Below, piece after piece: positions 15,507-59,950 of a stretch of 64,000 nucleotides of DNA (positions are counted from its first letter, which is position 1; each line of letters opens with the position of its first letter). The position numbers were made by a program, and so were the translations under genes. Source of the stretch: Xanthostigma xanthostigma (Eukaryota > Arthropoda > Insecta > Raphidioptera > Raphidiidae); NCBI GenBank assembly GCA_963575645.1, contig OY754464.1:62842948-62906947 (forward strand). The letters run 5' to 3'. The notes beneath the pieces were generated by a model. That model saw only the letters and a list, made by a program, of their open reading frames with translations. It ran no database searches and was not told where the DNA came from.

Positions 15507-16583
15507 GTTGTCTGTAAAGTCGGTTTACGGACGATAGTTTTACGTGATAACGTATTCCGTAATACATAACCTAAACCTCCCAAAATTTGGTTTCAATCCG
15601 CTTATCCTTGGTGTCGGAATGATAAGAAATGTCAAAAGTGACGTTTGCAACTGTCAAAGTATTATGTTCTAATAATAATTAGTTATTCCAATACTTAACT
15701 TAGAAGGCGTTGCATTTCACAAAATACTAATGTCAAAAAATTGAATTAAACATTAGAAATGCAGCCGTTTTCATGTTGCATTTATACAGCTATTTTTCTA
15801 TATAAATTTGTATAAAAAAAGAAACAACTCACAAATAACACAATTAACAGTCGATAAATAAACATTTAATTATTCAGTTCCGAAAGTGCAGTAAAAATTA
15901 TAAAATTGAAAAAAATTAAATCAGAATAACATAAGTAAACAGTCGCATATAAAGGCACAGATTCAATTATGCGACATTTCCCCGAATTTTTACTGAAAAT
16001 GCCTGCTATCGACTATATGTAGTACAGCAGCGTAATTTGGGTTGCCTGCATATATTTTTTCACAAAATTAATAGATTTGTATAATAATTCGAATCTATGA
16101 TATTGCATCTTTCGCTTCAAATTTAGGTTAATTTTATTTATTTAAATTACTTACCATATAATATAATTGTTTTTTCTAACTTTCTTTCGTATTTAGTTTA
16201 AGTCTCAAAGATTAGCTGTCATAATATTTATAAAACAATTGCTTCACTGTTTATAATATAAAATTCCAAAACCTACTTACAATATTTAAGTATTTTCATA
16301 CGTCAAAAAATTGATTTTTATAATGATAAAATTTGTAAGAAAACGATTTTTTCGAGAGATGAGACCTAGCTAAAACGATTTTTTGCCCCCCAAAATCCCT
16401 TTTCAGTAAATTTCATCCAAATCGTTAGGGCCGTTTTCGAGAAAAGCACGCACAGGGTCAGGCGGAACGTTAGGAACGCTATAGGAACGTTACGTTACAC
16501 TTTTTCGTGCATGCAGCCGGTGTTTTATCAATTTATAAGATTGGTGATTCATCAATTTATAAAACGTTATCACGTCAAAAATA
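15507..16583 (-). mobile_element. Repeat family D, copy 1
   Basis: One end reads AATTGGTTGTCTGTAAAGTCGG with ACGTGATAACGTATTCCGTA, the other ...ATAAAACGTTATCACGTC. An inverted ACGTTATCACGT motif lies subterminally at each end, though the extreme ends differ. Copies: 25427-26045 and 41570-42135 (plus), 48912-49553 (minus). The central part, including GTAACGTTCCGCCTGAC and GCATGCAGCCGGTGTTTTAT, is conserved, with short tandem TAACG repeats that vary between copies. No coding capacity; class unknown. Confidence 0.65.
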
Positions 16584-17053: not shown

Positions 17054-17062
17054 GCAATAATT

Positions 17063-17919
17063 GGTAAGAGTTCGATAACTTGCTATGCAAAATATCCACT
17101 GGAAATTCACAATTATTGTTTTATATAACATATTATAACAGCGTTATTGGTCGTTTTAAGTGCGGAAAATTAATTTTTATAAATTAATTAAAAAAAATTA
17201 AATATGGTATAGTAAGTTGATTTAGAGTATATTATTTACTATAGTGATCGCTATCTTGTCTCATATAGTGATAAGAAAAGAGAAAGTTATATATACTTGT
17301 ATCTATGATAAACAAAGATAGAAATATCAATTGGTTGGAATGAAATACAATTGAACGTTCAGGGCAGAGTCGTATTTAGAAATTTTAATTTATAAAACGA
17401 ATTTTAAATAAAAACCAACCAACTTAAAACTCACATTTTCATGAAGATTGAAAACCACCGCTTTTTTTGATAAAGGGGTATGCGAATTGTCTCGCAGTGA
17501 AACGGGAAGGGGCAAATGTGGAGTTTTTAAAAAAAACAATTCCGGGGTGAACGATAAACGGGTATGCGAATTGTAATTCTGGGGTGAACGATAAAGGGGT
17601 ATGCGAATTGTCTCGCAGTGAAACGGGAAGGGGCAAATGTTGAGTTTAAAAAAAAAAAACAATTCCGGGGTGAACGATAACGGTGTATGCGAATTAGATA
17701 GTTAATTTGTTTATAAATATCTTATTTGTGATTTTTGATTGGTTAGATTCAAGAAATGACAGTGAAAGACGAAAAGTAGTTCCATTTTTTTCACGTATTT
17801 TTGAGGAAATTTGTGAATAATCCGCAAAGTTTTTTTTTTTGAACGTCAAAATTTAGCGTTTTCTATGACTTAAAAAAAAAATTCACAATTTGGGTGCATA
17901 GTGTTATCGAACTGGACCC
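17063..17919. mobile_element. TIR element with 120-bp minisatellite, copy 1
   Basis: Bounded by a 9-bp direct repeat GCAATAATT (17054-17062 and 17920-17928). The left end is GGTAAGAGTTCGATAAC and the inverted right end GGGTCCAGTTCGATAAC, sharing AGTTCGATAAC and the leading GG. Inside is the 120-bp minisatellite array with two units (17444-17690). Copy 2 (18597-19604) shares both flanks of the array. A 9-bp duplication is typical of Mutator-like elements and also seen with Merlin-type; no transposase is encoded, so the superfamily is inferred only. Confidence 0.8.
17444..17690. repeat. 120-bp composite minisatellite, array 1 (2 units)
   Basis: The unit is built from a segment of about 83 bp and one of about 37 bp, both starting GTGAACGATAAAsGGGTATGC. 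The longer one adds TCTCGCAGTGAAACGGGAAG and GGGGCAAATGTGGAG. 'AAAGGGGTATGCGAATTG' occurs at 17472 and 17592, exactly 120 bp apart. Because 120 is divisible by three, long minus-strand frames appear across it; these are not genes. Confidence 0.85.
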
Positions 17920-18006
17920 GCAATAATTTGTTCACAGTTTGTCGTATTCCTGATTTCCTACGTGTTTAGTTCACTTATTAGTCGTTTTTAATAACTGCTT
18001 TAAAAA

Positions 18007-18204
18007 ATGGTTCGTTATACTCTTTTAGAATACAGGGACATGATTATGTGTTACGGCGAAACTTCTTCAAATAATTACGAAGCTCAACGTATCTATCGAG
18101 AGAGATATCCATTAAGACAAGTTCCGCATGTTAAAACATTTAATGGCGTGCATAGGCGTTTGGGAGAAGGTGGCAAGGGGCTCACAGAACAGCGTGTAAC
18201 TTGA
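18007..18204 (+). CDS. DUF4817-type helix-turn-helix protein, truncated
   Basis: A 65-codon ORF starting at an ATG. It shows the pattern of the DUF4817 domain of insect repetitive genes: an N-terminal YTLLEYRDMIMCYGE helix, then EAQRIYRERYP, then VPHVKTFNGVHRRLGE. This domain (about 50-60 residues, probably DNA-binding) normally precedes a longer transposase-like protein. Here the frame ends after GKGLTEQRVT and no downstream domain is visible, so it is likely the 5' end of a dead transposon. It starts 79 bp right of the 9-bp duplication of the neighbouring TIR element but is not part of it. Confidence 0.6.
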   Translation: MVRYTLLEYRDMIMCYGETSSNNYEAQRIYRERYPLRQVPHVKTFNGVHRRLGEGGKGLTEQRVT

Positions 18205-18431
18205 AAACAAAAAGCGATCGGACATTACTGTATAGAAATTTTTTTAATTATTTTTTGGTCCTCTATCGCGTGGTACTATGCAATGTAGTTTGATATAAAA
18301 AATCAATTGCCGTGCGTTAGTCTCTTAAAAACTCGAGAATGGCTCGACCGATTTGAATGTTTTTTTTATTTGGTCGCCTCAATATTGGGGTGGCTTAGAA
18401 AAAAACAAAGGTAGAGTCGAAAACGTTTTGT

Positions 18432-18587
18432 ATATTAGCAAGCTTAGTAATGAACCTTTTAATTTCGAAAGTGGAAGAAAATTTAAGTTTTGGATTGAAG
18501 TCTCTTAAAGCATATGTAGACGACACAGCTATAGCAGTACCAAAAAATAATACTCAAGAGTTACTACAAAAATTCAATAGGTATATA
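18432..18587 (+). pseudogene. Penelope-like element reverse transcriptase fragment
   Basis: The frame reads ILASLVMNLLISKVEENLSF, then LKAYVDDTAIAVPKNNTQEL, ending in KFNR. YVDD is the catalytic RT motif C; the order (motif B tail LASLVMN, about 25 residues, then YVDDT.I) is typical of Penelope-like RTs. Upstream motifs are missing. The frame is cut by insertion of the TIR element at 18597, whose duplicated target TGTTAAATG supplies a stop. After the insertion (about 19655) NLSGIYNQLFG might be a decayed GIY-YIG endonuclease start, but this is weak. Confidence 0.65.
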
Positions 18588-18596
18588 TGTTAAATG

Positions 18597-19604
18597 GGTA
18601 AGAGTACGATAACTTGCTATGCAAAATATCCACTGGAAATTCACAATTATTGTTTTATATAACATATAACAGCGTTATTTGTCGTTTTAAGTGCGGAAAA
18701 TTAATTTTTATAAATTAATTTAAAAAAATTAAATATGGTATAGTAAGTATATTATTTACTATAGCGATCGCTATCTTGTCTTATATAGTGATAAGAAAAG
18801 AGAAAGTTATATATACCTGTACCTATGATAAACAAAGATAGAAATATCAATTGGTTGGAATGAAATACAATTGAACGTTCAGGGCAGAGTCGTATTTGGA
18901 AATTTTAATTTATAAAACGAATTTTAAATTTAAAGCTCACATTTTCATGAAGATTGAAAACCACCGCTTTTTTTGATAAAGGGGTATGCGCATTGTCTCG
19001 CAGTGAAACGGGAAGGGGCAAATGTGGAGTTTTTAAAAAAACAATTCCGGGGTGAACGATAAACGGGTATGCGAATTGTAATTCTGGGGTGAACGATAAA
19101 GGGGTATGCGAATTGTCTCGCAGTGAAACGGGAAGGGGCAAATGTGGAGTTTTTAAAAAAACAATTCCGGGGTGAACGATAAACGGGTATGCGAATTGTA
19201 ATTCTGGGGTGAACGATAAAGGGGTATGCGAATTGTCTCGCAGTGAAACGGGAAGGGGCAAATGTTGAGTTTTTAAAAAAACAATTCCGGGGTGAACGAT
19301 AAACGGGTATGCGAATCTAAATACGACCCTGCTTCCATAACACAATCGAAAGCTGCATTCAAAGTGAGATAGTTATACAATAATTCTACACCAGTTGCTA
19401 TGACGTGTATTTGTTATTTTTGATTGGTTAGATTCAAAAAATGACAGTGAAAGACGAAAAGTAGTTCCATTTTTTTCACGTATTTTTGAGGAAATTTGTG
19501 AATAATCCGCAAAGTTTTTTTTTTTGAACGTCAAAATTTAGCGTTTTCTATGACTTAAAAAAAATTTTCAAAATTTGGGTGCATAGTGTTATCGTACTGG
19601 ACCC
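18597..19604. mobile_element. TIR element with 120-bp minisatellite, copy 2
   Basis: Bounded by a 9-bp direct repeat TGTTAAATG (18588-18596 and 19605-19613). The ends are GGTAAGAGTACGATAAC and, inverted, GGGTCCAGTACGATAAC. Left flank (ACTTGCTATGCAAAATATCC), array, and right flank (ATGACAGTGAAAGACGAAAA) match copy 1. Length exceeds copy 1 by 151 bp, mostly one extra 120-bp unit. It is inserted into the Penelope-like RT. No transposase. Confidence 0.85.
18940..19318. repeat. 120-bp composite minisatellite, array 2 (3 units)
   Basis: 'AAAGGGGTATGCG' occurs at about 18978, 19098 and 19218, an exact 120-bp period, with nearly identical units. The minus-strand frame of 146 codons here (40-residue repeats such as FAYPFIVHPGIVFLK) is a consequence of the 3x40 period and has no start context or family match. 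Confidence 0.85.
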
Positions 19605-20060
19605 TGTTAAATGTATTATATTAACAAAAATGACACTGTAAATTTTAGATCAGACGTAGAAAATCTCAGTGGTATCTATAACCAATTATTTGGAATCAAA
19701 AAACTTTTTTCTATAAATACCTACATATTAGTTTACCAATTTTTTAACATATTTTTTTTAATATACTTTTACCTATACACACATTTTAAAAACTTCTTTT
19801 AGAATCAATCTTGTTACATAACTGACCCTTTACAGCAAAGGATACAATCATAAAATTAGAACAATTTATATTATTCTCGAATTTTATAAGTGACAAAATG
19901 GCATATAGCCAAAGTTGCTGAGCACGTAATTTAAGTAAAAAAAAACAAAAGTTTTTATTTTTAACAATTGAATTTTATTAGTAAGGTAAGGTAAACTATA
20001 ATTTTAAATAACATATTTGTATAATAATTGTATTTATTTCATTATAATTATTTATATTTG

Positions 20061-25426: not shown

Positions 25427-26045
25427 GATTTTTGACGTGATAACGTCTTATAAATTGATGAATCACCAATCTTATAAATTGATAAAACACCGGCTGCATG
25501 CACGAAAAAGTGTAACGTTCCTAACGTAACGTTCCTAACGTTCGTAACGGTCGTAACGTTCCGCCTGACCCTGTGCGTGCTTTTCTCGAAAACGGCCCTA
25601 ACGATTTGGATGAAATTTACTGAAAAGGGATTTTGGGGGGCAAAAAATCGTTTTAGCTAGGTCTCATCTCTCGAAAAAATCGTTTTCTTACAAATTTTAT
25701 CATTATAAAAATCAATTTTTTGACGTATGAAAATACTTAAATATTGTAAGTAGGTTTTGGAATTTTATATAAACAGTGAAACAATTGTTTTCAAAATATT
25801 ATGACAGCTAATCTTTGAGACTTAAAATAAATACGAAAGAAAGAAAGTTAATAAAAACAATTATTTTTATAGGTGGTGAGTAATTTAATAAATAAAATTT
25901 ACCTAAATTTGAAGCGAAAGATGCAATATCATAGATTCGAATTATTATAATTATTATATAAATTTAGGTTATGTATTACGGAATACGTTATCACGTAAAA
26001 CTATCGTCCGTAAACCGACTTTACAGACAACCAATTTTTTTTTTT
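25427..26045 (+). mobile_element. Repeat family D, copy 2
   Basis: From TTTTTGACGTGATAACGTC to TACAGACAACCAATTTTTT. It carries an expanded run of CCTAACG/TAACGTT repeats near 25515-25560 not seen in the same form elsewhere. The rest matches copy 1 in reverse orientation. It lies in the GPCR intron. Confidence 0.65.
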
Positions 26046-28290: not shown

Positions 28291-28663
28291 ATTTATAGTT
28301 TAGAAATCATTATTGCGTAGTTTCTGTGTCTAACAAAATACATATAAAAATGTATAAAAAAAATAAAAATATAAAATTAATGTATATTCTCTGAATTAAA
28401 AAGTTGACGTAAGAATTTTCATTAACCCTTCCCCCTCCATTTAACTGAGATTTGGTGAGATTTTGCCCCCCTCCCCTATTTTGAGCTCACGTATTAATGG
28501 ACGTCCCCTCACGACATCCAACGCCACCGCACGCTTGGAACCTGGCAGCAGGGTTGCCAACTCCTAAAAATCTTTCCCTCCAACCATAAATTGAAATGTT
28601 CCTAAAAATCCCCTAAAAAAATAATTGTTTTACTTTGAAAAATTTTTATTTCTAATAATGTAT

Positions 28664-28850
28664 ACAGCGCTCGGTATCCTTATAATAGCAGAATAGTGAA
28701 TACAGTCGTCAAAGCGGCAAACTTTGTTGAAGATAAGTTAACAACAAAAAATGAAGTTACAATAATCGGAATTATTTCTTAACTCATATTCAACAAAGTT
28801 TGCTGCTTTGACGGCGATATTCTGCTCTTGAAGGAGACCGAGCGCCACAT
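28664..28850. mobile_element. Palindromic MITE nested in the hAT element
   Basis: The arms GCGCTCGGTATCC..GCAGAATA..GTCAAAGCGGCAAACTTTG and the inverse CAAAGTTTGCTGCTTTGAC..ATTCTGC..GACCGAGCGC pair over about 80 bp each. Non-coding; no target duplication identified. Confidence 0.65.
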
Positions 28851-28954
28851 GATGTTGCCATAATACTATATTAATTATGGGGAATTATAAAACGGTCGAA
28901 TAAAAAAACAAATTTGGTGACTGATGAGATACTGTTTTAATAATTTGAGATATT

Positions 28955-29526
28955 AAAATAATAGTTGAGTGACTAAATTACTACAAGTAAGTGAGCGACT
29001 AAATTACTAAGTGAGCGACTAGAATGCCTTCGGTAATTTTGAAGCAGATATCTTCTTTTGTTTTTACTTTTTATTTATTTTCACTTTGAGACTACAACCT
29101 AAAACTCACATTTTCATGAAGATTGAAAACCACCGCTTATTTTGATAAAGGGGTATGCGAATTGTCTCGCAGTGAAACGCGATGGGGCAAAGGTTGAGTT
29201 TTTAAAAAAATAATTCCAGGGTGAACGATAAACGGGTATGCGAGGTGTAATTCCGGGGTGAACTATAAAGGGGTATGCGAATTGTCTCGCAGTGAAACGG
29301 GAAGGGGCAAATGTGGAGTTTTTAAAAAAACAATTCCGGGGTGAACGATAACGGGGTATGCGAATTAAATAGTTAATTGTTTGAATAGAACTGCGTTTTC
29401 TTAAAAATGACAGTCAATTAAATATATATTTTTTAAAAAACGCATTTCTATTCACACAATTAACTATTAACAACTTAGTAATTTAGTCGCTCACTTAGTA
29501 ATTTAGTCACCCAACTATTATTTTCT
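28955..29526. mobile_element. Inverted-repeat element carrying the minisatellite, third locus
   Basis: The left arm AAATAATAGTTGAGTGACTAAATTAC, with repeated GTGAGCGACTAAATTACTAA, matches the right arm inverted (TTAGTAATTTAGTCGCTCAC, CAACTATTATTT). Between them is a minisatellite array (29097-29366, two units of 120 bp) whose immediate flanks (AACTCACATTTTCATGAAG and ATAGTTAATT) match copy 1 at 17063. The termini are unrelated to GGTAAGAGT..., so the cassette sits in a different element type. Confidence 0.7.
29097..29366. repeat. 120-bp composite minisatellite, array 3 (2 units)
   Basis: 'AAAGGGGTATGCGAATTG' recurs 120 bp apart (about 29146 and 29266). It is somewhat more diverged than arrays 1 and 2 (for example GCGATGGGGCAAAGG for GGGAAGGGGCAAATG). 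A hairpin, GAATAGAACTGCGTTTTC with its inverse, follows at 29374-29466. Confidence 0.8.
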
Positions 29527-29855
29527 CGTCACGCGCAGTCAGTCGCTCAGTAGCCCAAATTGATTATTTTTGTCACCCAAAATTGTAATTTACAGTCACT
29601 CGTTTAAATACTACCCATTAATTATTAGGACTTAGGTTACGACTTAGTAAACAGATATTTAACAATGAGTCGGTTTTGTAATTCAAATTTAAGTTTTTTT
29701 TTGTTCCTAAAATTACCCCTAAAAATATTAGGGCCCCAAAATTAGAGGATAAAACCCCCAAGTTGGCAACCCTGCCTGGCAGCGGACCTAGTAGCAAAAC
29801 CAGCCTCGTGTGCAGCGGCCTTTAGTCACAGCTACACAATAAAGTACAAACTTAC

Positions 29856-41569: not shown

Positions 41570-42135
41570 TTTTTTTTTTTTTGACGTGATAACGTCTTAT
41601 AAATTGATGAATCACCAATATTATAAATTGATAAAACACCGGCTGCATGTACGAAAAAGTGTAACGCGTAACGCATAACGCATAACGCGTAACGTTCCGC
41701 CTGACGCTTTTTGCTAATTTCTCGCTCAATTTAAATCAGATCGGTTTGAAACCAGTCTTAAACGAAAGAGGAGAACATTTTACATAGATTTCGTATAACA
41801 GAATTTGCCTAAACAGTTTTTTTATACAAATTTATATAGAAAAATATTTTATACAAATTTATATAGAAAAATAGCTGTATAAATGCATTCAATTTTTTGA
41901 CATTAGTATATTGTGAAATGCAAGGCCTTCTAAGTTAAGTATTGGAATAACTAATTATTATTAGAACATAATACTTTGTAAGTTGCAAACGTCACTTTTG
42001 ACATTTCTTATCATTCCGACACCAAGGATAAGCGGATTGAAACCAAATTTTGGGAGGTTTAGGTTATGTATTACGGAATACGTTATCACGTAAAACTATC
42101 GTCCGTAAACCGACTTTACAGACAACCATTTTTTA
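41570..42135 (+). mobile_element. Repeat family D, copy 3
   Basis: From T-rich TTTGACGTGATAACGTC to TTACAGACAACCATTTTTT. It contains a compact run GTAACGCGTAACGCATAACG, a variant of the TAACG repeat. A local duplication (TATACAAATTTATATAGAAA twice) is at about 41823-41875. Confidence 0.65.
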
Positions 42136-43629
42136 ATTTAGTAAACGCGCAGCAGCGTGGCTATATGCGTTATATTATTTGGTTATGTTGTAAGCACTCA
42201 GGTCTTTTTCCTAACGGAAGTAACGTTGTCGGACGGAAGTACCGTGTTTTTGCAGTTTCCTCTAATTAAAGGCGTTGACTGATAGATAGCGGCATCAAAA
42301 CGCATCTGTACGAGACATCTTGAACGAACATAGCTACGGACGCAAACCAATTTTGTGATCAGCAGAGGTCGACGAAACACGTAATTGTATTTATCACAAT
42401 TATATTCAAAGCAATGGTACGTCAATCCGGTGTCGGAGAGCCAACCGGATGGCGAGTGGTAATCTGGGCCTTTGAGTGGTACAGCTGGTAGCGGCCAAAG
42501 TGACCCCAAATGGACAGGGGCGGCGATATGGGGGTGGGGCAAAATCGAAAAATTTTTGAAAAGGCAACCGGATAAAAATGCGGTTGCATTGAAGAAAATA
42601 CCCTAATTATATAATAAAATGTTTTTGCCAGCCGAAACACGCGGGCCGTTTTCGCACTAGCGAAAAAAAACTGAAAAGTAAACCGCTTCAAAATTAGTGA
42701 GCATACTTATTGACACCACCAAACGTTGGGAAAAAATTGCCATCCGATCCTGATGGGCAGTTTCGGAGAAACAACCCCTTTCGATTATGGATTTTTATTC
42801 TTGACAATTTTAACTGAATTTTCAACTTTTTAATGATTTAATTTTTATTACTTCTAATTTCTTTTTTTAATTATTTACTGCAAAAAATACAGATATTTAC
42901 ATAAATTTATTTTTTTAACCTAACGTTGTACAAAAAATTCAAAAGCCCTTTTGAGCTGTTAACATTTTCAAAAATTGTGCCAAATTGTTCAGGAGGCTAT
43001 GAAATGTCCAAAAATATTAGTCCGGCCTCTAGGTCCCACCATCCGACCAACGCCAATAGTGTATGTGTCGTATGACAAACACACTAAAGAAATAACAAAA
43101 ATTATAAAGTACACCTGGGTGTGGCTTTTTGTGGCTTTTGTTGACCGAAGTATAACATCAATCAAACTGTTATGTGAGGTCTGTTGACAATGAAAAATTT
43201 CCATAACGTTTTTTTTTCTTTAATTCATTGTTATATTAATAATCTCTATAAAAGAGAGTTAAAATTTGAACAAATTGTTATTACCTACCGTTTCAACCAC
43301 AGTAATTAGATGTTACGGTATATTATTAATATTTTATTGTCTAAACTAGTGGTCAAGAGGGCAACGTAAGAATTCTACACAGGATTAAATTTTAAAGGGA
43401 TGTAGTATTTATCTTGACAAAGAACAAGAAAATGTGAGTGATCGTGGGACGCCTGACAGATGTGAAACATAGATTTAAGCTTGCTTAAGTTATAAAGCCT
43501 TGTAGATACGAACACATCCTAAAGCACTATGGACACTCTACGAACACTTCTTAAAGACCTATGGATACTCTACGGACACTTCCTAAAGCTCTATCGACAC
43601 TGCAACCTTAAGTTACTAGCAGCGCTACT
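42136..43629. other. Stretch without a recognised gene
   Basis: A GC-richer patch at 42390-42545 gives overlapping minus-strand frames (42198-42691) without a recognisable domain. The rest is AT-rich. A short imperfect triplet of ACCTATGGACACT-like units lies at about 43520-43605. Confidence 0.35.
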
Positions 43630-44120
43630 TAAATAACTATTATTCAACTCATGCGCGTTATTCATGTTTTATCATGCCTAAAAACCGAACCCTAAATAGC
43701 CATTTACCGACTGGTGACAATTACTTGTCATAACTCAATGAAGATTCCTACTAGCTCGGTCATTGTGGAGTAATGAAAATAAACGTAACTATTTTCTGAG
43801 TCGTAACGAAATAGTAGGTAACAACAACTCCGTTGTTACCCATTGAGACTAAAATTGAGAGGCCGAATGTTTTCGACATGGAGTTTATTCATAACCGGCT
43901 AACCTCAAACCAAAACATTGAATCGTGCTGTTTGGTGCTGTTAGTATTGACAGTTTTTTTTATAAAAAAATAAATAGATATTTACAACATCCCATTATAA
44001 TTAAAACATGAATAACGCGCAATTGTTGAATAAAATTATGGGCGCAACTTGTAGGCTAAGTCATGACCTGTCAGCGCGATGAATGACTTAGACTACTAGT
44101 TACGCCAATAACTATTCTAG
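43630..44120 (+). mobile_element. Repeat family E, copy 2
   Basis: Same element as 26460-26985 in the opposite orientation: TTCAACTCATGCGCGTTATTC ... GAATAACGCGCAATTGTTG, followed by the shared GCGCAACTTGTAGGCTAAGTC block. Identity appears high, suggesting recent activity. Confidence 0.7.
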
Positions 44121-45150
44121 TAGGTATTACGTAACTAACAAAACTCAGTTTGATGTCGCCGTCAACAAAAACTATGTAACAATCTAACGCACACACCTAG
44201 CAAACGTTACGCGCTGTCATCTACAATCGCGAAATACTAGTAACTAAAAAACGAAATAATGTATCATCATCACAGTGTCGTCATCACAACTTATGCATCT
44301 TTAATACCACCAGCAAAATTGTCTAAGTGCCGTATAAAGACTTTGACAATGACGACATTTTTCATATTAAAAAGCATTTCAAAATATAATATTTGAGAAC
44401 AATGTAAGTATAGTTTCTGCATACGAATATCGTAAAATTACAAGTTTATATTTTTTCATCAGATTTAAATTCAAAATGTTATTCATCTACCTACACGTCG
44501 TAACTTTTGACTTGAATGTTCATTTAATCCTCGAAATTCAACAAACAAAACAAAAGCCTTCAGACAGCAGTCATCTGCTGAATATGTTTATTACAGGGAA
44601 CAAAATATGTAAATTTCTTGTTTGTGAAACAACAAATCAGTCATGTTTATAACCAAAAGCCAGTTTAAATCATTTTATAATATAAATGTTATAAAGGCTA
44701 CCGATTTTTAGTCGAGAAGCATAAATCAAGGGTTCCTAAACGTTTTCTGTATGTAAACCTTTTTTGATTTAATAACGCAATCCAATAATTATTATTACGA
44801 AAATGTTACTTGACGTACCATAAACAAAAAATAATAAGTTAATTTGTAATTATACAGGGCTAGCACAACCAGGCCCCTCTTTCCCACTGGCCCTGGCCAC
44901 TAGCCCAGGGCCGCGCGATCGATAGGGGCCTCCTAGTTCCTGCCATTAATGAAACGACAACCGATATTTATTACCGAACAACATAATATTTATTTCGAAA
45001 AAATCAAACGATAATGACTGACTACAATACTTGCTTATTAGCTTTTGCATGCGCGAATCTACTCTACTTTCGCCCGAAAATCAGGTTTTCCGATTTCAGC
45101 ATATTCAGGTAAATTTAAATATAAAAAATACAATAATTTAAGTACAATGC
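44121..45150. other. Non-coding stretch with a possible hAT-like end
   Basis: A GC-rich patch, CAGGGCTAGCACAACCAGG at 44856 to GATAGGGGCCTCC at about 44930, resembles the left end of an old hAT element. CAGGGCCGTCTTTAACC (inverted) at about 45925-45941 could be the right end, which would enclose the hAT MITE at 45159. No target duplication supports this. Confidence 0.35.
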
Positions 45151-45158
45151 TTCAAGAG

Positions 45159-45418
45159 CAGGGGTGGGCAAATCTTTTGATCGTCGGGGCACATTGCGGA
45201 TGAAAATTTCTAATTTTAAGTATAGTTTTTTTGAAACAACAATTTCAAGTTTTTAAACACAATTTGCTATTTTTCCAAAATTTTGCTTATGCGCCAATTT
45301 ATATTGGCAGACAGTAATATTTTTGCTCTTAATAATCACTTATAAAATGCTTCGCGGGCCGGAGAAAATTCTACTGCAGGCCGGATCCGGCCCGCGGGCC
45401 GCCATTTGCCCAGGTCTG
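45159..45418. mobile_element. 260-bp hAT MITE, copy 1
   Basis: Flanked by an 8-bp duplication TTCAAGAG (45151-45158, 45419-45426). The ends are CAGGGGTGGGCAAATC and ATTTGCCCAGGTCTG. The GC-rich right part contains GGCCGGATCCGGCCCGCGGG. Non-coding. Confidence 0.9.
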
Positions 45419-45426
45419 TTCAAGAG

Positions 45427-46572
45427 ATTAACCAGTTTGTAGATTTTGCCCATCTCAATCCAGAAGGGTACATCTTCAATCAACATAGATTTTTAAGCAT
45501 TAACCTGTGAATGCTAAAAGAGTTACTTTTGTAGATTATATTATATTATCTATTCATTTAATGTGACCGGGAGTGCCGGCGGAAGTGAAAACTTGAATAT
45601 TAACGTCTTACGAATTTTCGATCAAAATTGTTTGTATCATAGATTGCATTTTTATGTACGATATTTCAAGGCTAGATGTCTAACGTTGTATAAATAAAAG
45701 TTTTCGTCTTACGCATTTTCGATCAGGACACGTGACCCTGACGATCTGACGCGAGTTTAACATTTTTTACCATTACAAAAAAGTGTACAACGCCGCTAAA
45801 GAAGTTTTCACTTCAATAAATCTAGAACCTTACTTATCTACTTTCTTTGCCTATTCTAACAAAATAGTGCTCTGTCAAGGTCATAGAGGTCCTATTATTC
45901 TAATGTGCCCAAGGCCTCCAATAGGTTAAAGACGGCCCTGATCACAACACTCGTTTAATTAAAATCAGATACATAAAATTGGTAGCAACAGAAAACGAAA
46001 CTCAAAAGGTTTTGTTTCACTAGATCACAGCTGAAAACATTGACTGTATATAACGTACCATTCACCCCGAGAAACGGTATGAGAGAAAATGGCGTAGGAT
46101 GAGATTGATAAATAGCAATTGTGTATTTGAAAATTACTGCCATTGTGGACAGGAAAACGTTTTGTGTCCTGAATTTTCATCATAATACAAGATCCGGAAG
46201 CTGATTCCTGCAGATAACTGTTTTTTCAATGATACTTAATTTAAGTCACTGATCAAGGATAATTAATGTAATACATTACTGCCGGGTAGCCGATAAAAAA
46301 TTAGCCGCAATTACCTTTAATTAAATACTGTATTGTAATTAATTTATTTTAATAAAATACGACTATATTTTTTAAGTATAGTTTAAATGTCGTTTGAAAG
46401 AAAATGATCTGAAGTATTAAAAAAAAAAATGGTTGCCAGCTCTCAGTAAGCAGGTATGCTATTTACTATAATATGCCACGTACACTGTTGGCGAGATTAA
46501 AATTTCTCGACGCTTCATAGCCTAGCGAATATTTTAGCATCATTTTTGAGTATGTTGAACTGTCCGATATAC
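45427..46572. other. Non-coding stretch
   Basis: No gene recognised; isolated chance frames such as 45955-46143 on the minus strand. Confidence 0.35.
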
Positions 46573-47105
46573 CAGGATGTGTCCTAAATACCGGGGTGGT
46601 CAATTATTTCGAATACTGCACGTTGAATTAAAAAAAACACGTATCCAGTATTTTTAAAAGATCTATTTAGCGACACTGGGGGCAGGTTCAGGGGTAACTT
46701 TGAAATTTTAAATGGGTACCCCCAATTTTTATTACAGAATTGTATTCTACGTTGAAAAATAAGACATTTTCTTTAAAATATTTTTTTCGAATTTGAGTAT
46801 ATGGCGCTATAAATGGCGTGTCTGTTGTCTGCAGGACAGAGTGACGTCGGCACCATCTATTCAGAATTCGAAAAAATGTTTCAGACAAAAGTGTCCTATT
46901 TTTCAACGTAGAATACAAATCTGTAATAAAAATTGGGGGTACCCATATAAAAGTTATCCCCGTCCCCAGGAGGGGGGGAGCATGGGGTCAACTTTAGTGT
47001 CGCTGAATAGATCTTTTAAAAATACTGGATACGTGTTTTTTTGTTTTTTAATTCAACGTGCAGTATTTGAAATAATTGACCGCTTCGGTATTTAAGACAC
47101 ACCTG
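46573..47105. mobile_element. 533-bp inverted-repeat element
   Basis: The ends CAGGATGTGTCCTAAATACC and GGTATTTAAGACACACCTG are inverted repeats, and inversion continues for about 230 bp per arm (GTGGTCAATTATTTCGAATA; TAGACAATTT-type blocks; TGGGTACCCCCAATTTTTAT). A small unique centre lies near 46800-46860. TAC flanks both ends and may be a 3-bp duplication. The frames 46688-46918 and 46793-47095 are by-products of the inversion. Confidence 0.75.
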
Positions 47106-48022
47106 TACAAATGTATATTATTATTTTATGAAGTGAAAATTAGATACTTTATAGGAGGCACCTTCGTGCAAAGATGATATTATGACTCGGGTGACTGTTA
47201 AAACTCGCTGGTTTCTCGTTGTAACTTAACGTCACTACTCGTACCCTCATTTACAAACGAAATAACTTTACTAACCACTATTTTGTTATGATTTTAGTTC
47301 ACCTCTATACAAGCGTCGGCAACCTATGACCCTCAGGTCATCAAGTGACCCATTTGATAATTCCAAGTGGCCCATCTCTTGAGTTCTGCTAGTAAAGTAG
47401 GTACAATTGTATAATATATAAAAATAAGTTATGAAACGTAAATTAAACGTAATTTTGAGAAAAAATAAAGATAAAATATGTGTTTTCTCAATAAAATTTA
47501 TCTTATGCACTGACGAACTGTTAAATGAAAATACCCATTACCACCCATTACCCAAACTGTCCTCTTAATTGTCACATTTTGGTTGATTTTGATCCGTAAC
47601 CAAAAAAGGTTGCAGTAGGAGAGCTATCAAACATTTTTGGGTAGGTATTTGAGGCTGCGTAAATATTGTGTAACACTTCTTTTGTAGTGTCTGAACACAA
47701 AATCGAAGACCTGCCCGAAGGATAGTGGGGCTTAGCCAAGTCGTGTATTTTTAACTTTGCAAAATTTTATTTGCCAAAAAAGTCCTTGAGGCATTTTTAA
47801 TTTTTAATATCTTCCGTATTTAATAAAAATAAAAAATAAATAAACCAGATTAATTAGTCGGGTCTAAATGTTTGCTAGGCCGTTTCAAAACTCTATACAG
47901 GTTAAAGTGTTGTCGAACAAACTGGAGAGAAAAATAGGATATAATTCATGGTTGAGTTTTCAACGATCTTTTGTCGGCATCTGCTGTTTAATATAATATT
48001 TTAACACCCATTGCGTTAAACT
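47106..48022. other. Non-coding stretch
   Basis: 'AGCGTCGGCAACCTATGACC' at about 47310 resembles an old hAT-derived end. No gene recognised. Confidence 0.35.
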
Positions 48023-48030
48023 GATTAGAA

Positions 48031-48321
48031 CAGGCCTGGGCAAATGGCTGCCCGCGGGCTGGATCCGGCTTGCAGTAGACTTTTGTCCGGCCCGCGAAGC
48101 ATTTTATAAATGATTATTAAGAGCAAAAATAGTTTGCCAATATAATCTGGCGCATAAAAAAAATTTAGAAAAATAGTAAATAGCAAGGGCCACAACAAAC
48201 GAAAAAAGACCTTTTTGTTGCAAAAATGAAAGGACCTTTTTTTTGCTCTCCAAACTTTTGGCCCACAGTCAAATTTTCATCAGCAATGTGACCCGACGAT
48301 CAAAAGATTTGCCCGCCCCTG
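48031..48321. mobile_element. 291-bp hAT MITE, copy 2 (reverse orientation)
   Basis: Flanked by an 8-bp duplication GATTAGAA (48023-48030, 48322-48329). The ends are CAGGCCTGGGCAAATGG and GATTTGCCCGCCCCTG. It is the same family as 45159-45418 with some extra sequence (a pair of AAAAAGGACC-type strings at about 48205-48240). Confidence 0.9.
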
Positions 48322-48445
48322 GATTAGAACATGTCACATTAACGACACTAATTACCTACATAGAACAAAAACAATCCATATAGGGTTTCTCCTGAACTTC
48401 GTTCTAACTAACTCGATATGAACAAAACTCCTTTTTTGTGTATGT

Positions 48446-49938
48446 GTTACCGTAAATAGCCGAAATCCGGTTTTTATAGTTACTTATAAGAATGTGAAGT
48501 ATCTACGAGCATTTGTAATTTCGAGTTCTTACTAGGAAAGACGCGAATTAAAATTTTAATTCGGCTTTTAAATGCAGCTTTCAGTTAGAATCCGTTCTAA
48601 CCACACGCATAACAGTAAGTAGACGAAATACATATCTTTTAAGCGGACTACTTTACACTTCCGGTCCCCCAAAAACCAGTCACCTGTGTATCTCAAATAG
48701 GTTGAAATAAATAATAATAAATAAAGGTTTTTACTTTTAACATCATTTCGTGTTGGATTGGCGGGTTTTTACTGAAAAAAAGCAATTTGATTTTTGAATG
48801 ATTTTTTTTATATGAATGAAAAGATCATTAACAATTTTTGTAGCAAAACTTAAAATGTATTAGTATTTTCGATGTATGAAATAACCATTTCAAAAGAATA
48901 GTGATACGTAGGAAAAAAAAAATTGGTTGTCTGTAAAGTCGGTTTACGGACGATATTTTTCCGTGATAACGTATTCCGTAATACATAACCATAAGAAATG
49001 TCAAAAGTGACGTTTGCAACTTACAAAGTATTATGTTCTAATAATAATTAGTTATTCCAATACTTAACTTAGAAGGCTTTGCATTTCACAATATACTAAT
49101 GTCAAAAAATTGAATTAAACATTAGAAATGCAGCCGTTTTCATGTTAAGACAAGACATACGTTTGCTTCTAATTTCCATGTACGGCAAACAAAGACAACC
49201 GACCGCGTCGCGCCATGCATTACACAACATTGCATTTATACAGCTATTTTTCTATATAAATTTGTATAAAATATTTTTCTATATAAATTTGTATAAAAAA
49301 ACTATTTAGGCAAATTCTGTTATACGAAATCTATGTAAAATGTTCTCCTCTTTCGTTTAAGACTGGTTTCAAACCGATCTGATTTAAATTGAGCGAGAAA
49401 TTAGCAAAAAGCACGCACAGGGTCAGGCGGAACGTTACGCGTTATGCGTTATGCGTTACGCGTTACACTTTTTCGTACATGCAGCCGGTGTTTTATCAAT
49501 TTATAATATTGGTGATTCATCAATTTATAAGACGTTATCACGTCAAAAAAGTATGTATATGAACAATTCTTGTAGACAATTGTATGATCCACAACTTTTG
49601 TCTGTCCTATTTTTAGATAACATTTACCGTTTACGAGAAAAGTGCAAAAAACCGATACTTTTGACCTTTAACCTACAAATAAATTTTGAAGCAGATCTAC
49701 GATCAGTGGGTACTTTTGATTTTTTATTTGTAATAATATGTACTTAAGACCTGTACCAATTTTCAACTCTACGCGAATTACAGTAAACTGAAATGTTTAT
49801 TTTGACTAGACTACAGGCTCTAACTGAAAGCTGCGTGTCTTTCCTTGTAAGAACGCGAAATTACAAATTCTCGTATGCATACTTTGCATGCTTACTAGTA
49901 AGTACTTGTAAAAATGGATTCCGGCTATTTACGGTAAC
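48446..49938. mobile_element. Terminal-inverted-repeat element, GTTACCGT family, copy 2
   Basis: The ends are GTTACCGTAAATAGCCG and CGGCTATTTACGGTAAC. Inverted blocks continue inward (GAGCATTTGTAATTTCG; TTCTTAC.AGGAAAGAC; CAGCTTTCAGTTAGA). The tips match the element at 2952-3810, but the inner arms are different. Family D copy 4 (48912-49553) is nested inside, which accounts for much of the length. Confidence 0.7.
48912..49553 (-). mobile_element. Repeat family D, copy 4, nested
   Basis: From AATTGGTTGTCTGTAAAGTC to GACGTTATCACGTCAAAAA. It has the same GCGTTATGCGTTATGCGTTA run and doubled CTATATAAATTTGTATAAAA as copy 3, so copies 3 and 4 are closest to each other. Confidence 0.65.
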
Positions 49939-59204: not shown

Positions 59205-59504
59205 TAATAAATTCTTTTATAGATCCTCAAACTAAAAAGTGAAAAATAAAATATAGTTTAAAAAAAAACTAAAAAACACGCTTTATATCGGACTAAAAAG
59301 TAAAAAATAATTGTTTTAAAATAAGCTTAAAAAGCGTGGGGCGCTTTGTTCCACATTTTCGTACATCGAGCGCCCAACGCTTTTTAAGCTTATTTTAAAA
59401 CAATTATTTTTTACTTTTTAGTCCGATATAAAGCGTGTTTTTTAGTTTTTTTTAAACTATATTTTATTTTTCACTTTTTAGTTTGAGGATCTATAAAAGA
59501 ATTT
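59205..59504. mobile_element. Palindromic element, GCGTGGGGCGCT family, copy 2
   Basis: The whole 300 bp is a palindrome: AATAAATTCTTTTATAGATC at the left is repeated inverted at the right, then ACTAAAAAGTGAAAAATAAA, AACACGCTTTATATCGGAC, ACTAAAAAGTAAAAAATAAT. The apex is GCGTGGGGCGC / GCGCCCAACGC around a 23-bp core TTGTTCC...ACATCG, which is the exact reverse complement of the core at 51532. Its right arm is the start of the tandem units that follow. Confidence 0.8.
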
Positions 59505-59950
59505 ATTAATCCTGGGGGTCCTAATAAGGATAATGGGAAACTGTTATCAAATTATTGCATTGTCATCGGTCCTTGATACGTATGCAAAGTTTCAAATTAA
59601 TCAGACTTCGGGAAATTGGTGAAAATAAAGCGTTTACTACAGAGGATCTATAAAAGAATTTATTAATCCTGGGGGTCCTAATAAGGATAATGGGAAACTG
59701 TTATCAAATTATTGCATTGTCATCGGTCCTTGATACGTATGCAAAGTTTCAAATTAATCAGACTTCGGGAAATTGGTGAAAATTATGCTCAAAGATTTAA
59801 AAGAATTTATTAATCCTGGGGGTCCTAATAAGGATAATGGGAAACTGTTATCAAATTATTGCATTGTCATCGGTCCTTGATACGTATGCAAAGTTTCAAA
59901 TTAATCAGACTTCGGGAAATTGGTGAAAATTATGCTCAAAGATTCCGTTA
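59485..59950 (+). repeat. Three tandem units of 147-157 bp
   Basis: The unit starts AAAAGAATTTATTAATCCTG, includes GGATAATGGGAAACTGTTAT and TTGATACGTATGCAAAGTTT, and ends GGGAAATTGGTGAAAAT. It starts at 59495, 59652 and 59799. Copies are almost identical, so expansion is recent. It is followed by two repeats of CAACCCAA.CTAATATAAAGC at 59987-60040, a terminal module also seen inverted at 51124. Confidence 0.85.

Follow-up and report, generated by a model that had tools for sequence, protein, structure and literature searches.

Rehavkus elements are related to Mutator, encode a transposase with a PHD finger, and occur in insects and annelids. In the excerpted descriptions of the group, they duplicate 9 bp of the target and carry a minisatellite ahead of the 3' terminal repeat (PMC6446971); in Rehavkus-1_TC of Tribolium, arrays of satellite DNA lie within the inverted termini (PMC10218199). 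In aphid Phantom elements, a minisatellite lies after the transposase gene (PMC6446971). Phantom and Muta, both MULEs of arthropods, are described in excerpts as having duplications of 8-10 bp, many non-autonomous derivatives, and subterminal tandem repeats (PMC5225508, PMC6446971). Merlin elements have GG termini and duplications of 8 or 9 bp, and the excerpted account records terminal repeats that are imperfect as well as a 163-bp tandem repeat inside the element (PMC8101967). Tetris / DAIBAM of Drosophila virilis is described in part as non-autonomous, with internal tandem repeats and duplications of 8-10 bp (PMC4079207).

The two elements analysed here lie in a stretch of 64,000 nucleotides (the window; G+C content 32%) from the snakefly Xanthostigma xanthostigma. 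They belong to a family that is a kind of transposon already known. The family resembles Rehavkus in its 9-bp duplication, the minisatellite before the 3' repeat (across 59 copies, motif counts give arrays of 2 to 5 units), and the insect host. Compared by description only, it differs from Rehavkus in that the window copies have no transposase and the terminal repeats are short and imperfect. Rehavkus terminal repeats span 26-400 bp; the left and right ends of this family have AGTWCGATAAC and CTATGCA in common and differ in the outer six bases. The Mutator superfamily range of duplication lengths, 8-11 bp, includes those found here (9 bp in 38 and 8 bp in eight of 58 distinct copies, with none exact in the remaining 12). 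The terminal repeats set the family apart from Muta, where, in the part of the account covering Aedes, they exceed 100 bp in 12 of 14 Muta families. Both GG termini (left end GGTAAGAG in 57 of 59 copies, right end GGGTCCAG in 54) and a duplication of 8 or 9 bp (46 of 58) are as in Merlin, but a long tandem repeat is recorded in one Merlin family only in the excerpted account. Tetris has long foldback repeats that enclose its tandem repeats, whereas this family has one array between short ends.

We propose that both copies are members of a single high-copy family of non-autonomous cut-and-paste DNA transposons, in which a 120-bp minisatellite precedes the right end. A DDE transposase acting in trans would make a staggered cut of 9 bp, sometimes 8 bp. 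The two window copies differ in the base at position 10 of their ends, and the states A/A and T/T (left/right) would be diagnostic of two groups joined by mixed intermediates with A on the left and T on the right. Each end would have changed separately, perhaps in the order A/A, A/T, T/T, and the mixed form would itself have been mobile. We hold this account with high confidence as far as the family and its subfamily history are concerned; the identity of the transposase is judged separately below.

Two window copies and their insertion sites

Copy 1 (17063-17919, forward strand, 857 bp, T/T group) runs from a left terminus at 17063-17089 (GGTAAGAGTTCGATAACTTGCTATGCA, forward strand) to a right terminus at 17895-17919 (GGGTCCAGTTCGATAACACTATGCA, reverse strand). 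Its minisatellite (17469-17695, forward strand) holds 1.9 units of about 121 bp, and GCAATAATT stands on both sides as a 9-bp target-site duplication (17054-17062 and 17920-17928). Copy 2 (18597-19604, forward strand, 1008 bp, young A/A group) has its left terminus at 18597-18623 (GGTAAGAGTACGATAACTTGCTATGCA, forward strand), its minisatellite of 2.8 units of 120 bp at 18975-19316 (forward strand), and its right terminus at 19580-19604 (GGGTCCAGTACGATAACACTATGCA, reverse strand). It is flanked by the 9-bp duplication TGTTAAATG (18588-18596 and 19605-19613). The flanking repeats of both copies are exact. These coordinates, repeats, and matched T/T and A/A ends are exactly as the initial annotation gave them. 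The arrays stop 224 and 288 bp short of the right ends. In a global alignment with some poorly matched columns, copies 1 and 2 show 18 substitutions across 818 aligned bases. Other T/T copies have a stretch of about 90 bp, close to the right end, that copy 1 lacks.

No open reading frame of at least 110 aa was found within the window copies, apart from one that runs through the minisatellite of copy 2, in agreement with the earlier observation that neither contains a transposase. Copy 1 had no match among phage records, and a 27-base word taken from the minisatellite had no exact match in viral contigs or in bacterial and archaeal genome contigs; these collections do not cover insect genomes as such, and both results carry little weight. 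The surroundings of copy 2 (18420-18596 and 19605-19730) resemble, by eye, a degenerate reverse-transcriptase fragment with a YVDD-like stretch. A DUF4817 helix-turn-helix fragment (Pfam E 9.9e-9) is found between the two copies at 18007-18180.

Exact duplications flank 46 of the 58 distinct genome copies. They are 9 bp in 15, 8 bp in two, and not exact in eight T/T copies; the corresponding numbers are 20, five, and four for A/A copies and three, one, and zero for A/T copies. The middle of the 38 nine-base target sites is A/T-rich. For unoccupied sites, the two flanks of each copy were joined at the duplication and compared with the other loci read and with the window. A match spanning the joined junction was found for 13 copies, and seven were inspected base by base. 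The 8 or 9 bp are present once and intact in the unoccupied paralogues of L035 (two sites), L010, and L007. Those of L008 (two sites) have a single copy with one mismatch, and the paralogous sites of L041 and L059 a single copy with two mismatches each. For L053, which has no exact duplication, the comparison gives an ambiguous result. The window itself, at 16097-16530, contains one of the unoccupied paralogues of the L035 site, whose junction was inspected base by base; a second window match to this site, at 25480-25986, is a spanning match only. Since the unoccupied paralogues have one copy of the site, this comparison shows that the target bases were duplicated upon insertion, as had been supposed for the 9-bp repeats, and it fixes the boundaries of the element.

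End states among genome copies

The window contains four occurrences of the motif AGTWCGATAAC, one at each of the four copy ends, and none of 100 shuffled windows reached that number. For the W, copy 1 has T on either side and copy 2 has A. Left and right terminal repeats match imperfectly, reading GGTAAG-AGTWCGATAACTTGCTATGCA on the left and GGGTCC-AGTWCGATAACACTATGCA on the right (family patterns GGTAAGAGTNCGATAACTTGCTATGCA and GGGTCCAGTNCGATAACACTATGCA). It had been suggested that the ends are homogenised. The constancy of the different left and right outer bases in nearly all copies (counts above, one segmental duplicate included) speaks against this: the left and right ends are not homogenised, because their outer six bases stay unlike.

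The 623-Mb assembly (28 contigs) was searched with both copies. Copy 1 gave 2684 first-look candidates and copy 2 gave 2960, and the best 40 for each query were scored. For copy 2, the best 40 of the 2960 comprise the locus of the copy itself (100%) and another 39 that are 99% identical. Sixty loci, 30 per query, were read, yielding 59 copies with both ends and 58 without the segmental duplicate. The latter is L052, omitted from the 58 because it shares flanks and duplication with L036; the two lie about 200 kb apart on contig C2 with near-identical flanks and an 8-bp duplication in common, which marks a segmental duplication. L029 was omitted since its right end is not in view, as was L031, which repeats L013. 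A second start in L001, whose right end is also out of view, is copy 2 and was counted as L032. L026, which carries an inserted sequence, is included in the counts and left out of the trees.

Among the 58 distinct copies, position 10 is T/T in 25, A/A in 29 (28 of them in the young group), A/T in four, and T/A in none; as these copies are the best matches to two matched-end queries, the shares are not genome frequencies, and the true share of mixed ends may differ. The tabulation of end haplotypes called for by the initial annotation thus returned its two subfamilies with mostly matched ends (54 of 58) together with four mixed copies, among copies similar to the queries. Outside the minisatellite, mean divergence is 0.88% among the 28 young A/A copies, 1.92% among T/T copies, and 2.84% between the groups. 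Counting motifs gives three minisatellite units for each of the 30 A/A copies (the duplicate among them); for T/T copies it gives two (18 copies), three (4), four (2), or five (1). T/T and A/A copies are told apart by a linked set of differences: base 10 on the left, the corresponding base on the right, one indel of 11 bp and one of 14 bp (AAAAACCAACCAAC), and single bases. The in-step pattern of the ends seen in the window arises because one member from each of two subfamilies is being compared. It shows how subfamily history can yield a striking pattern in two copies.

The A/T copies are L002, L003, L027, and L054, each with an exact duplication of 8 or 9 bp. L002 and L003 have the 11 bp but not the 14 bp; in L027 both stretches are present. 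Apart from its mixed state, L054 is a young A/A copy, and a private mutation may have produced that state later. L030 has A/A ends and an interior of the L002 type. Judged from these differences, the copies form a chain from A/A through A/T and A/T plus 14 bp to T/T. L002 and L003, which are 0.6% apart, lie on different contigs and have different duplications (GTATTATCC and GGTACTTC). A mixed-end element has very probably moved, because these two are sisters at different sites. The idea that matched ends are required for mobility therefore finds no support.

Order and cause of the end changes

In a tree built with both end positions masked, the left base needs one change, the right base two, and the joint state three. 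The joint number equals the sum of the two, and no branch is therefore required to change at both ends; whether the ends changed in step is a question to which the evidence says no. Support in this tree is uneven, with 97 for the clade formed by the A-left copies that lack the 14 bp and 79 for L002 + L003; with outgroups the values are 98 and 90. The outgroup tree groups L030 with L002 and L003 at 65, adding one right-end change to those of the masked tree. Neither tree gives more than weak support to the placement of L027.

Two diverged relatives bear on the direction of change. One, beside L033, has the left end AGTACGATAATTGG with A (80% over about 120 bp); the other, at position 2887 of L078, has the right end GGGTCCAGTACGATAAC with A (88% over 91 bp). 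Both have a tandem array near the right-end sequence. These arrays are 82% alike to one another; their resemblance to the repeat unit of the present family is weak (in two copies, about 80% over 50 bp). Because both relatives carry A, the comparison suggests that A/A is the earliest state, an order that we hold lightly. The L033 relative is gapped at both end columns of the outgroup tree, and the left polarity is taken from the BLAST match. The outgroup-rooted tree places the root, with weak support, among T/T copies, and this counts against A/A as the oldest state.

Gene conversion or template switching between the inverted ends would change both together. The same base at both ends in 54 of 58 distinct copies, with one position altered alike on both sides, is what such a process would leave. 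However, it would have to spare the outermost six bases, which remain GGTAAG and GGGTCC in nearly all copies. The four mixed copies and a masked tree that requires no branch with both ends changing also oppose it, and we consider concerted change highly improbable. Co-adaptation is an unlikely explanation as well, though less so. Base 10 would then be a transposase contact, with selection for matched ends in each burst and mixed ones transient. Both large groups are matched, mixed copies make up four of 58, three of them intermediate in the linked differences, and T/A was found in none of the 58, all of which would fit; but the mixed copies L002 and L003 moved, inheritance within two bursts is enough to account for the association, with no need of selection, and sampling went by similarity to matched-end queries. 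As mixed copies are few and T/A is absent from the 58, there may be a mild preference for matched ends. It is conceivable, if rather improbable, that the contact at base 10 shifted from A to T, first right and then left, as the acting transposase changed. The mixed copies would then be surviving intermediates of a stepwise swap in specificity. The reading we prefer remains separate changes at the two ends, inherited within two subfamilies. If base 10 does track transposase specificity, A/A, A/T, and T/T copies would form a natural test series for the co-evolution of ends and enzyme.

Which transposase moves the family is a separate matter. The duplications of 9 or 8 bp and the GG termini are compatible with both Mutator/Rehavkus and Merlin. 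For the Mutator/Rehavkus group, to which we lean because of the minisatellite without claiming membership, we put the chance at about even, as a candidate for the enzyme acting in trans. That the family is Merlin is less likely. The GG termini, duplication lengths, imperfect repeats, and 163-bp internal tandem repeat in the excerpted Merlin account all agree with it; but the excerpt of PMC6446971 places a minisatellite before the 3' end in Rehavkus and, in aphid Phantom, behind the transposase gene.

MULE transposases and other elements

Matches to MULE transposases listed for the genome number 53. At 20 of these 53 loci, a scan of 1.5-kb flanks allowing up to 6 mismatches found the ends of the family on the locus's own MULE element in none (0/20). 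One candidate for an autonomous partner was the MULE at L078, where the diverged right end lies beside a 607-aa MULE gene. This end points in the opposite direction from the gene and falls just beyond the block repeated in other MULE copies, so it was read as a neighbour of an unrelated MULE element. Its other end was not found in the next 1,001 bases. The MULE element itself (L078:125-2886) contains the 607-aa open reading frame between repeats of about 300 bp that are direct, not inverted, and 81% alike; three other copies among the loci read are 99% identical to it. The listed MULE matches are strongly concentrated, with 31 of the 53 in one region of contig C10 (8.8-16.3 Mb).

A related minisatellite cassette is found elsewhere in the window (29095-29382, forward strand), 92.5% identical to positions 358-650 of copy 1. 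It sits in a different element without the ends of the family, implying that the minisatellite and some of its flank are common to unlike elements. Inverted arms at 28955-28983 and 29496-29524, 97% complementary, flank the cassette and form a foldback-like unit. The enclosing element has 15-bp perfect inverted ends (28548-28562 and 29761-29775), with CCTGGCAG on both sides. The stretch 28548-29775 is thus a set of nested elements, in which an outer element with ends CAGGGTTGCC and 8-bp flanking repeats, presumably hAT-like, surrounds the foldback-like unit that holds the cassette.

An element of about 8 kb with long inverted ends and nested inverted repeats inside occupies 41577-49550 of the window; its arms (41577-42139 and 48913-49550) contain blocks matching at 94-99%. 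At 59485-59939 there is a tandem repeat of three 157-bp units that are 96% alike.
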